Source: Thermalbibacter longus
GTDB lineage: Bacteria; Chloroflexota; Chloroflexia; Thermomicrobiales; Thermomicrobiaceae
Direction of reading: 5' to 3'
Assembly (NCBI RefSeq): GCF_023806485.1
Contig: NZ_JAMSLR010000006.1
Location: forward strand, 62,001 to 126,000
Length of the DNA stretch: 64,000 nucleotides
Numbering within the stretch: position 1 is the first letter of the stretch; each line of letters opens with the position of its first letter. Of this stretch, positions 43,857 through 47,184 are shown piece by piece. Made by a program: the position numbers and the translations under genes. Under the pieces are notes generated by a model that was not told where the DNA came from, did no database searches, and worked only from the letters and a program-made list of their open reading frames with translations.

Positions 43857-46109
43857 TCAGTCCGCCGGCTGGCTGAGCGCGGCTCTCACCGGGCGCCCGG
43901 CCATCTGCGGCGCTGGCTCGGGCAGCGAGACCACGTAGGCCGTCGAGATATGCGGGATGGTGAGGATCTCGGCTAGCGCCTCCTCGGGGATCGGGTCGTC
44001 GACGTTGAGCACCATGATGGCTTCGCCCCCGCGCTGGTGCCGGCCGACCTGCATCCCGGCGATGTTGACCTCGTAGCGACCCAGGATGGTTCCGATCTGC
44101 CCCACGATCCCCGGACGATCCCGGTGGTGCGTGATGAGCATGTGCCCGGCCAGCGGCCGCTCCAGTGAGAAGCGATCCACCTCCATGATGCCGGCGTCCT
44201 TGCGATCCCAGCGCACGGTCACGTGGTGGGGCGACTCGCCGTCGACCTCGAAGCTGAACTCCGGGATCGCTGCCGCGCTCGAGTCGAAGCGCACGCTGAC
44301 GAGCAGGTTCAGCTCGGCAGCCACGAGCCTCGCGTTGACCGGCGTCACCCGGCGATCTGACCAGCGGCGGAGCGCTGAGCTGAGCGCCGCCGCTGTGACG
44401 TGCTCGGCCACGTCAGGCGCGACCTGCCCCCGCACTGTCACGGCGAACGTGCTCGGACGGTTGGGTTGGAGGACGGCGATCAGGTGCCCGGCCGCGTCGG
44501 CTACCTGAGTGAGCCGCAGCAGCTCCGGCGCGCGCAGCGAGGCCGCGGGCAGGTTGACCGCGTTCGGGACGATCTCGCCACGCAGAGCAGCCAGTGTGGT
44601 CGTGCTGATAATCTCGCCGACAGCCTCCAGGGCCTCCCGGCTGGAGCCCCCGATGTGCGGCGTGAGGACAACGTTAGGCAGGCCGAAGAGCGGGCTGGCG
44701 TAGGCAGGCTCCTCTGGGAAGACATCGATGCCGGCGGCGGCCACGTGCCCGCGCTGGAGGGCCTCCGCCAGCGCCACCGGATCGACGACTTCGCCGCGGG
44801 CACAGTTGATGACGATCGCCCCGGGCCGGAGCCGGGCGATCGCATCGGCATCGAGCATGTGGTGCGTCTCCGGGGTCGCTGGGACGTGGAAGGTGATGAT
44901 GTCGACATTCTCGAGCAACGTCTCGTAGTCGACCGGCTCCACGCCGAGCTGAGCGAACCGCTCGCGCGTGATGTACGGGTCGTAGCCGAGGAGCCGAACC
45001 TCGAAGGCGCGCAGGCGCTGCGCGACCACCGACCCGACGCGCCCCAGCCCGACGATGCCGACCGTCTTGCCCTTGAGGTCGAAAGGCTTGAAGCGCTTGC
45101 GCTCCCAGCGGCCGGCGTGCGTGCTGGCGTTGGCCTCGGGCACGCAGCGGGCGATGGCCAGCATCAGCGCGATGGTGTGCTCGCCGGCTGAGACCGCGTT
45201 CGCGCCAGGCGCGTTGAGGACGAGGATCCCTGCCTGGGTAGCCGCCTCGAGGTCGATATTGTCGACTCCGCTTCCAGCGCGGGCGATGACCCGAAGCCTT
45301 GGAGCAGCCGCCAGTACCTCGCGCGTCACCAGCGTCTCGCTGCGCACGATCAGCGCATCGGCGTCCTGGACGGCCTTCAGCAGCGCCGCGCGGTCTCGCC
45401 CGTCGATGTCGACGATATCGGCTTCTGCCGCCAGCCGCTGGCGCGCCTTCTCATCGATCAGGTCACTGATGACGATGCGCCTGCGTCGTGGCTCGGCATC
45501 TTCGGGCTCGTGCCAGCGGGCGTTCGCCTGGGGAAGCACAGGCCCGATCTCACCGGCCAGGCTGAGGATCCGCTCGATCGCCTGTGCCAGATCCGGTACC
45601 CGGACGACGAGAGGTGACTCATCGGCCGGGGCAGGCTCGCTGCTGAGGAGGAAACAGGTGATGCCGGCACGGGCGTAGCACGTCGCGTGGCGCAGGCTGT
45701 CCTCGATCGCGTGCGTCACACCCAGGGCGCGCGCGACTTCGACCTTGTCGTCGGCGAACTCGATCCGGCAGGCCGGGAAGCGATGACGGCGGAGCCAGTC
45801 CTCGGCTACCGCCCGGGAGCGAGCTGGCCGAGCAGTCACGATCCAGACGTTCTCGGCGCCGAGAGTATCGAGTAGTCGCTGCAGCAGCTCTTGCGCCCGC
45901 GGGGCGGCCTCTAGCAGGCTGGCCGGGCCGCCTGGCCCGTAGACCCACTCGCGAACCGCATCGGGCACGTTACAGCCGGCCGAGTCGACGAAGGCATGGT
46001 CGGGGAGTTGCATCCCCAGCGCCCGATTCGCCGCCTGGGCGAGTGGCGCCGGGTGTTCGGTCAATACACCGTCAAGATCGAGCGCGAGCCGGATCGTTAG
46101 CTTCTCCAC
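43857..46109 (-). CDS. serA: HAD-phosphatase-like domain fused to D-3-phosphoglycerate dehydrogenase
   Basis: About 750 residues. The first 200 or so form a HAD-like domain with LALDLDGVLTEHP (nucleophile Asp), VTARPARSR, and the late acidic pair ADDKVE and IEDSLRHA. From about residue 215 a full long-type SerA follows: IVRSETLVTREVL, RAGSGVDNIDLEA, the NAD motif VGIVGLGRVGSVVAQ, NCARGEVVDPVALAEAL, LTPHIGGSSREA, an intervening domain and a C-terminal ACT domain (HHRDRPGIVGQIGTILG). It oxidises 3-phosphoglycerate, the first step of serine synthesis; the HAD part is an unusual fusion. Start is GTG 46109, with GGAGGG six bases upstream; a longer start at 46133 is less likely. Confidence 0.9.
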   Translation of the reverse strand: MEKLTIRLALDLDGVLTEHPAPLAQAANRALGMQLPDHAFVDSAGCNVPDAVREWVYGPGGPASLLEAAPRAQELLQRLLDTLGAENVWIVTARPARSRAVAEDWLRRHRFPACRIEFADDKVEVARALGVTHAIEDSLRHATCYARAGITCFLLSSEPAPADESPLVVRVPDLAQAIERILSLAGEIGPVLPQANARWHEPEDAEPRRRRIVISDLIDEKARQRLAAEADIVDIDGRDRAALLKAVQDADALIVRSETLVTREVLAAAPRLRVIARAGSGVDNIDLEAATQAGILVLNAPGANAVSAGEHTIALMLAIARCVPEANASTHAGRWERKRFKPFDLKGKTVGIVGLGRVGSVVAQRLRAFEVRLLGYDPYITRERFAQLGVEPVDYETLLENVDIITFHVPATPETHHMLDADAIARLRPGAIVINCARGEVVDPVALAEALQRGHVAAAGIDVFPEEPAYASPLFGLPNVVLTPHIGGSSREALEAVGEIISTTTLAALRGEIVPNAVNLPAASLRAPELLRLTQVADAAGHLIAVLQPNRPSTFAVTVRGQVAPDVAEHVTAAALSSALRRWSDRRVTPVNARLVAAELNLLVSVRFDSSAAAIPEFSFEVDGESPHHVTVRWDRKDAGIMEVDRFSLERPLAGHMLITHHRDRPGIVGQIGTILGRYEVNIAGMQVGRHQRGGEAIMVLNVDDPIPEEALAEILTIPHISTAYVVSLPEPAPQMAGRPVRAALSQPAD

Positions 46110-46278
46110 GTTGTTCCCTCCGGTCCAGTACATCCTTGACGATCAGGTCCGGGAACCCCGGACGGCGACTGGATCCGGAGGGACTACTGGCGCCGCGACC
46201 GGAGCTGGAGGAGGCCGACCACGATCCGCTGAGCGACGTGCGGGCGGGCAGCGAGACATGGAACCGGTGGCGGTGCAT
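46072..46278 (-). CDS. Serine-rich upstream ORF, candidate serA leader peptide
   Basis: A 68-codon ORF starting with ATG 46278, five bases after a perfect AAGGAGG and so with one of the best ribosome-binding sites in the window. Residues 9-37 contain 14 serines, including four in a row. It ends at 46072, inside the next gene and in another frame. The codons for Pro33-Ser34-Gly35-Ser36-Ser37 are the strand that can pair with the serA ribosome-binding site. Serine codons placed before a serine-synthesis gene suggest a leader peptide sensing charged tRNA-Ser. Caution: GC-rich non-coding frames often look Ser/Arg-rich, so the start signal and pairing carry more weight than composition. Confidence 0.55.
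   Translation of the reverse strand: MHRHRFHVSLPARTSLSGSWSASSSSGRGASSPSGSSRRPGFPDLIVKDVLDRREQRGEANDPARARS
46116..46182 (-). promoter_or_regulatory. Stem-loop that can sequester the serA ribosome-binding site
   Basis: On the transcript, CCCUCCGGAUCCAGU (46182-46168) can pair with ACUGGACCGGAGGG (46129-46116), giving 14 base pairs with one bulged A. The second strand contains the serA Shine-Dalgarno sequence GGAGGG. Between the arms lies a further perfect 7-bp hairpin with a 3-nt loop (46147-46163). Folding would hide the start signal; a ribosome on the upstream serine-rich ORF would open it. Confidence 0.7.
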
Positions 46279-46337
46279 TCGATCCTCCTTGCGGTCGTCC
46301 AGACGATGCGCCAGTAGCGCGCTCATCCTTGACGATC
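46131..46337 (-). repeat. Exact 14-bp direct repeat in the serA leader
   Basis: GATCGTCAAGGATG (minus strand) occurs at 46144-46131, in the loop next to the serA start, and at 46337-46324, near the predicted 5' end of the transcript. Each copy carries an AAGGATG start-like signal. Two exact copies 193 bp apart are unlikely by chance and suggest a duplicated regulatory element. Confidence 0.7.
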
Positions 46338-46354
46338 GGCAATTGTCGAGCCGG

Positions 46355-46384
46355 AGTATAGCCGATTTCCTCCCCGCTGGCCAA
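46355..46384 (-). promoter_or_regulatory. Predicted sigma-70-type promoter for the serA leader
   Basis: Minus strand: TTGGCC at 46384-46379, an 18-bp spacer, then TATACT at 46360-46355. The -10 is near-perfect, the -35 moderate. Transcription would begin near 46348, giving a leader of about 240 nt before the serA start. Confidence 0.55.
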
Positions 46385-46439
46385 GTGAGTCGTGCAGCCT
46401 CGCGGGGGCCGGCTCAGTCTGCTCCGCCTCATGGACAGG

Positions 46440-46898
46440 TCAACGCCTGCTGGTGATCGACTGAACCCAGGTTGCGCCCGCTCGCCGAGCGCTCGCGGCC
46501 AGACGCTGATCTGCGCACCAGAGTTCAGCCCCCAACTCCTCGGCGAGCGCGAGGTAGAAGGCGTCGTAGGCCCGCCGTTGCTCGAGTCGCGTGGCCCATT
46601 CAAACGCAGCGCGCGTTTGCTCAGGTGTCATCGGCAGGAGCTCTACCTCCAACGCCAGCAGGTCGTGTAACGCGCGACGGCCTTCTTCCAGGGAGATGGC
46701 GCCAGTGTGCACGAGCGCCCGCAGTGCCGATGCGCTATCAGCCAACCAGAGTATCGGCGCCACCACCCTCGCCCTCTCGCGCCGCCACTGGATCAGCAAA
46801 TCGAGCGGGTCAACGCGAGAGACGACCGGCACCACGACGCAGATCGCGAGGCTGGCGTCAACGACGATCGTCCGTCGAGCCGGCCAAGATGTCTGCAT
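46440..46898 (-). CDS. PIN-domain protein (VapC-like toxin)
   Basis: A 152-residue PIN-fold protein, probably a ribonuclease toxin. The first catalytic Asp is in IVVDASLAIC; later acidic positions are in RRAYDAFYLALAEELGAEL and CADQRLAASA. The usual second acidic residue (often in an LxxEV helix) is replaced by LADSASALRAL, where Asp may serve. The ATG at 46898 is preferred; its start overlaps the antitoxin gene by 41 bp, the usual toxin-antitoxin coupling. It lies about 50 bp upstream of the serA promoter. Confidence 0.82.
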   Translation of the reverse strand: MQTSWPARRTIVVDASLAICVVVPVVSRVDPLDLLIQWRRERARVVAPILWLADSASALRALVHTGAISLEEGRRALHDLLALEVELLPMTPEQTRAAFEWATRLEQRRAYDAFYLALAEELGAELWCADQRLAASARRAGATWVQSITSRR

Positions 46899-47184
46899 CG
46901 TGCTCCTCCCGCTCCGCCGCGACGAGTGCCGCAATGTCGATATCGAGCGGCACGCCACCGCGACGCTCGAGTACCGCCTGCCGGTGCTGACGGATCCGCT
47001 CGAGGGCGGCCATTTGCCGTGCCAGGATCACGTCGGCAGCCTGATCCCGCTGAGCCAGGTGCTCGCGAACCAGCTCCCTCAGCAGCTCGGACAGGCTGCG
47101 CCCCTCTAGCCGGGCCAGCTCGACCAGTGCTCGATACTGCTCCGGCTCCAGCAGAATCTGCGTCCGGTGCATCCGCTGCCTCAC
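46858..47184 (-). CDS. Ribbon-helix-helix antitoxin (VapB-like)
   Basis: A 108-residue protein with an N-terminal CopG/ribbon-helix-helix DNA-binding unit (HRTQILLEPEQYRALVELAR followed by LEGRSLSELLRELVREHL) and a charged C-terminal part that would wrap the PIN toxin. It represses its own operon and neutralises the toxin in known systems. Start is either GTG 47184 or ATG 47172. It is the first gene of the pair. Confidence 0.85.
   Translation of the reverse strand: MRQRMHRTQILLEPEQYRALVELARLEGRSLSELLRELVREHLAQRDQAADVILARQMAALERIRQHRQAVLERRGGVPLDIDIAALVAAEREEHDADILAGSTDDRR

Follow-up and report, generated by a model that had tools for sequence, protein, structure and literature searches.

A serine-rich leader ORF overlapping serA as a probable translational attenuator in a family of Chloroflexota

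Introduction

Surveys of leaders preceding amino acid genes report control by Trp, Leu, Ile/Val, Cys and His leaders alongside T-boxes, with no mention of serine or of serA (PMC1262725, PMC2965389). In one large survey, leader genes are stated not to overlap the structural gene (PMC4833913); overlapping ORFs were excluded there, so that a leader of the design described below would have been missed. The serA gene of Paenibacillus polymyxa is controlled by a serine T-box riboswitch (PMC8002221), and ribosomes of E. coli and B. subtilis are stated to pause at serine codons upon serine starvation (PMC4117421).

The systems closest in kind to the leader studied here are the cysteine-rich leader sORFs of mycobacteria (Canestrari et al. 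2020, as summarized in PMC9094748; predicted in PMC1262725). As far as that summary goes, both comprise an amino-acid-specific short ORF placed before the biosynthetic genes of that very amino acid, and both lack an obvious transcription terminator. The mycobacterial sORFs, on the same account, respond to their amino acid, a behavior that is proposed for the serA leader. Relative to what is summarized of them, the latter differs in its use of serine instead of cysteine, its occurrence in Chloroflexota, its length of 59–79 codons, the placement of an anti-Shine-Dalgarno sequence inside the run and the continuation of the ORF for 29–38 nt into the gene. Moreover, the mycobacterial sORFs are leaderless by the title of that work, whereas the serA leader ORF is preceded by a 5′ leader as well as, in most genera, by a ribosome-binding site: the codons that form its run are for serine, in an ORF located together with its Shine-Dalgarno (SD) sequence well below the −10 box.

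As in classical transcription attenuators (trp, his, leu, ilv, thr), a codon run read by the ribosome would decide the RNA structure, but the serA leader has no terminator, and its alternative structure is predicted to hide the ribosome-binding site of the gene. Stalling within a leader ORF likewise frees a sequestered SD in erm-type translational attenuators; there, however, an antibiotic causes the stall, whereas low Ser-tRNA is the proposed cause here, and the serA leader overlaps its gene. The P. polymyxa T-box (PMC8002221) acts on the same gene, as a cis-acting RNA and with tRNA-Ser charging as its signal. The serA leader, in contrast, is proposed to sense this signal via the ribosome and not by tRNA binding. 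Compared across related genomes, the element described below is very probably a serine-specific translational attenuator.

Results

Organization of the serA leader locus

The gene proposed to be regulated lies within a 64,000-nt stretch of DNA, which is referred to as the window (Table 1). Its product matches the PGDH model TIGR01327 at 532 bits over the cut-off and carries the Pfam domains 2-Hacid_dh and ACT, identifying it as SerA, the first enzyme of serine synthesis. The N-terminal domain of the fusion protein (45489–46109, minus strand) displays HAD-type motifs (DLDGVLTE/TARP/K/ED) that are invariant in 13 relatives; searches of this domain against Pfam and PDB returned no significant match. 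It could represent a phosphoserine phosphatase-like module, in which case two steps of serine synthesis would reside in one protein.

Table 1 Features of the serA leader locus (positions refer to the window).
Feature	Position	Strand	Remarks
Sigma-70-type promoter, TTGGCC-N18-TATACT (predicted)	46355..46384	minus	identified by sequence; above leader start
Promoter boxes	TTGGCC 46384-46379; 18-nt spacer; TATACT 46360-46355	minus	
AAGGAGG ribosome-binding site of leader ORF	46284..46290	minus	identified by sequence; 5 nt before ATG 46278
Leader ORF, 68 codons, serine-rich	46072..46278	minus	ends 38 nt inside serA
Serine run, leader codons 9-37, 14 Ser	46168..46254	minus	proposed sensor of Ser-tRNA charging
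5′ arm GUCCCUCCGGAUCCAGU, anti-Shine-Dalgarno within leader codons 32-37	46168..46184	minus	predicted pairing
3′ arm ACUGGACCGGAGGGA, holding serA Shine-Dalgarno	46115..46129	minus	predicted pairing
HAD-like domain fused to D-3-phosphoglycerate dehydrogenase (SerA), C-terminal ACT domain	43857..46109	minus	start GTG 46109

An initial annotation, made from the letters of this stretch, had described the promoter-like element, the 68-codon ORF five bases after AAGGAGG with its 14 serines in residues 9–37, and a pairing between this ORF and the serA ribosome-binding site. All of its coordinates were reproduced here, and the pairing was recovered as a prediction, the duplex joining GUCCCUCCGG-A-UCCAGU (46184–46168) to ACUGGA-CCGGAGGGA (46129–46115) with core pair probabilities of 1.0. 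Measured from the serA GTG at 46109, the leader ORF and serA overlap by 38 nt, a point to which the initial annotation had given no emphasis. By eye, no terminator-like hairpin with a U-run was visible in the sequence between the serine run and serA; the intrinsic terminator between leader and gene that defines the transcription attenuator subtype was not seen, and the leader runs into the gene.

A leader ORF conserved throughout the family

The leader was compared across the Thermomicrobiaceae/Sphaerobacteraceae family of the Chloroflexota, in which the serA 5′ region was readable in 19 of 21 genomes (L042 being one of the 19; G013 and G020, lacking a HAD-serA match, were left out of the count). 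These 19 fall into six genera (g1–g6), with serA about 60–95% identical, and represent one family and not 19 independent events. Every one of them contains a homologous leader of 59–79 codons with 11–18 serines, whose frame with respect to that of serA is constant and whose stop lies at +29 to +38 of serA. Between positions −75 and +3 of serA, no stop codon interrupts the leader frame in 19/19, as compared to one genome for the serA frame and four for the other frame. A leader-frame stop inside serA occurs in 19/19 family members versus 9/24 outside the family (p ~ 1e-5, relatedness ignored).

Signals for expression are conserved along with the frame. A TATACT or TATCAT box lies 67–102 nt above the leader start in all 19 genomes, extending the promoter assignment to the relatives, and this conserved, predicted promoter makes a transcription start below 46182, which would have spoken against the leader, less likely. 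The ribosome-binding site reads AAGGAGG in the four genomes of the genus and GGAGG in g6, g3 and g5, while the leader SD is weaker in g2 and g4. By sequence, then, most genera have an ATG plus SD, i.e. a translatable short ORF with initiation signals of its own. Taken together, the comparison indicates that the leader ORF is real and conserved in the family.

Outside the family, no such leader was found at 26 loci belonging to other families in the order (24 HAD-SerA and two unfused SerA loci). Leaders were sought at chosen genes; upstream of serS in the family, none was apparent. Away from serA, all occurrences of the motif TCCAGTAGTCCCTCCGG contained mismatches and were about as frequent as those of a reversed control; copies identical to the conserved motif were confined to serA.

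A conserved frame that, in most genera, carries a ribosome-binding site of its own would also be expected if the region ahead of serA encoded a small, serine-rich protein with a function. Such a product is highly improbable, as the peptide outside the serine run is hardly conserved between genera and matches no Pfam family. A structured RNA, be it a riboswitch or a protein-binding site, might instead regulate serA, with the serine reading being incidental, and the stretch around CCAGUAGUCCCUCCGG indeed hardly varies across g1 and g6. In g4, g5 and g2, however, frame and serines are retained on a different underlying sequence, the leader frame alone is stop-free throughout, and searches of the window and of the 46000–46480 stretch against Rfam, including the T-box model (RF00230), gave no match. 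Regulation by a structured RNA therefore seems very unlikely.

Serine identity is retained while codons turn over

The initial annotation had warned that GC-rich non-coding frames are often serine-rich, and for one genome this caution is apt: eight of the 514 ORFs in the 64,000-nt window that encode at least 40 aa contain at least 13 serines per 30 aa, and serine content alone was rejected as evidence, about 2% of window ORFs being a match. Dinucleotide shuffles rarely reproduced the serine content of the window leader (p = 0.001; 0.003 for any frame), and for representatives of each of the six genera p ranged from 0.0002 to 0.016. Across the 19 genomes, the leader frame holds 10–17 serines versus 1–7 in the other two frames; codons for the pathway's own amino acid are thus over-represented. 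The single-sequence evidence is suggestive; it is the conservation of frame, serine, overlap and position in 19 genomes that settles, at the level of sequence comparison, that the leader is not a product of chance. That a GC-rich non-coding frame merely happens to be serine-rich, as those eight ORFs might suggest, consequently retains almost no credibility, the more so as the leader is absent at the 26 loci outside the family.

Serine was preserved even though the underlying sequence was not. Between genera, leader sequence and serine codons have both changed, in favor of codons that are locally rare: AGT accounts for 0.20–0.40 of serine codons in the leader but for 0–0.06 in serA in five genera, and in genus g4 TCA makes up 0.54 of them in the leader as opposed to 0.09 in serA. 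Serine identity is hence what is kept. The conservation expected of a genuine leader was accordingly found for the ORF start and the serine run (19/19) and not for the serine codons themselves. A sensor of charging would call for both this retention of serine through turnover and the bias toward rare codons; judging from codon usage, these rare serine codons are presumably read slowly here.

The serA Shine-Dalgarno is predicted to pair with the serine run

Most genomes yield minimum-energy folds in which the serA SD is base-paired to the central portion of the serine run, usually at leader codons 28–38. The position of the anti-Shine-Dalgarno inside the run is conserved in 19/19, and the paired sequences differ by genus: predicted pairs include CCUCCGG/CCGGAGG, CCUCCAGUC/GACUGGAGG, GGGCUCCAG/CUGGAGGUCCC and GGACCUC/GAGGUCU. 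For the window leader, about 1% of codon-order permutations gave an SD duplex this strong. The duplex exceeded such permutations at p ≤ 0.075 in 15 of the 19 genomes (p 0.0025–0.075 in g1, g6, g3, three of the four g4 genomes and L014); it was not above this null in L015, L016, L021 and L042.

Where genera could be aligned (g1, g3 and g6), nine core pairs form in 11/11 sequences, in the correct register only. Seven of these nine are invariant and a single double change was seen, so that classical covariation support is modest, and strict covariation was set aside as proof of the stem. Of the covariation that the initial annotation had proposed to look for, pairing with altered bases thus materialized in most genomes, while compensatory change within alignable genera amounted to that one double change.

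To model stalling, a ribosome was moved stepwise through the leader, and only the RNA downstream of it was folded. In most genomes, exposing the serA SD becomes less costly in this model once the A-site reaches the latter half of the run, with its conserved Ser-Ser-Pro-Ser part. The earliest serines precede the position at which a stall would open the stem, which speaks against the attenuator reading. For the window leader, the modeled cost drops from 19 to about 5 kcal/mol at Ala30-Ser31, and in L013 and L016 it never settles below half. When RNA upstream of the ribosome was also allowed to pair, which was calculated for the window sequence only, release of the SD was weaker (18.4 to 8.7 kcal/mol).

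A model for serine-dependent control of serA

We consider it likely that the serA leader is a ribosome-mediated translational attenuator, with the serine-coding leader peptide sensing charged tRNA-Ser. The serine-sensing leader proposed in the initial annotation gains support from the frame, the serine run, the position of the anti-Shine-Dalgarno, the promoter and the overlap, each present in 19/19 genomes. Sequence comparison provides the basis for the coding frame, the serine identity, the overlap, the promoter and, in most genera, the pairing; translation of the leader, the direction of the response and occlusion by passing ribosomes we infer.

Transcription would start below the TATACT box at 46355, and ribosomes would load onto the leader at 46278. 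With ample Ser-tRNA, they would cross the serine run quickly and the run would fold back onto the serA SD; in addition, leader ribosomes would traverse the serA start region and stop 38 nt inside the gene, resulting in poor serA initiation. When Ser-tRNA is short, ribosomes would slow down in a run rich in locally rare serine codons and cover the anti-Shine-Dalgarno, leaving the serA start free and allowing for more SerA and more serine synthesis. More SerA when serine is scarce would be the physiologically sensible direction, and it follows from the modeled geometry. Counting against an attenuator, ribosomes that finish the overlapping leader ORF would also briefly disturb the stem.

This last point touches on a simpler possibility, namely that translation of the overlapping leader only couples to serA, opening the stem and re-initiating from the stop without any sensing of serine. 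The overlap and the nearby stop, 29–38 nt inside serA, are kept in 19/19, and re-initiation at leader genes has been proposed to raise expression (PMC4833913). Yet coupling accounts neither for serine and rare serine codons being kept through turnover nor for the SD partner lying in the serine run; it predicts less SerA under serine shortage, and re-initiation 29–38 nt backwards, albeit possible, is not the usual arrangement. We regard coupling on its own as unlikely.

If the serine-responsive attenuator holds, its design would have two parts: the serine run itself would serve as the anti-Shine-Dalgarno strand, and the leader frame would run through the serA ribosome-binding site, such that fluent leader ribosomes would occlude serA and stalled ones would both open the stem and halt the traffic. 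The initial annotation knew of no such leader for serA in this group, and no serine leader at serA was found in the literature searched either; most subscription papers lay outside that search, and novelty is unproven. If the model is true, this would be the first serine-sensing leader peptide, going by the searchable literature. That the two-part design is indeed this first case, and the first such translational system in Chloroflexota, where it would stand beside T-boxes, we put forward tentatively, with rather less than even confidence. The serA leader in any case offers a testable candidate for a serine-responsive control element in this phylum.

Amino acid control elsewhere in the family and neighboring features

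A T-box riboswitch at serA was considered and rejected, there being no covariance-model match at this locus and T-boxes elsewhere in the same genome. Well-assembled genomes of the family contain 6–11 T-boxes each, including ones directly upstream of trpE (G000:C34:361431-361706) and leuA (G000:C12:174706-174932). The ilvB genes (L120–L137, e.g. L127 at G000:C12:104706) are preceded by a conserved Ile/Val/Leu-rich ORF, such as RSLILLIVGILIILRASGLGG; a GC-rich hairpin, e.g. GAGCCTCCCGAGACCGGGAGGCTC, and a short T-rich stretch follow in all genera checked. Such a region resembles a transcription attenuator of the ilv leader-peptide kind, here within Chloroflexota. With T-boxes at trpE and leuA, a leader with a terminator-like hairpin at ilvB and the serA leader, the family appears to use three RNA devices for its amino acid genes, a division relevant to the question of how one RNA control system comes to replace another.

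Two further features were observed around the serA leader. A 14-bp direct repeat, GATCGTCAAGGATG, occurs at 46131–46144 above the serA ribosome-binding site and at 46324–46337 above that of the leader (both minus strand); its lower copy is not retained in relatives, so that the repeat is probably due to chance or local copying. Directly upstream of the serA promoter (46440–47184, minus strand), tandem genes encode PIN-domain and CopG/ribbon-helix-helix proteins, likely a toxin-antitoxin pair.
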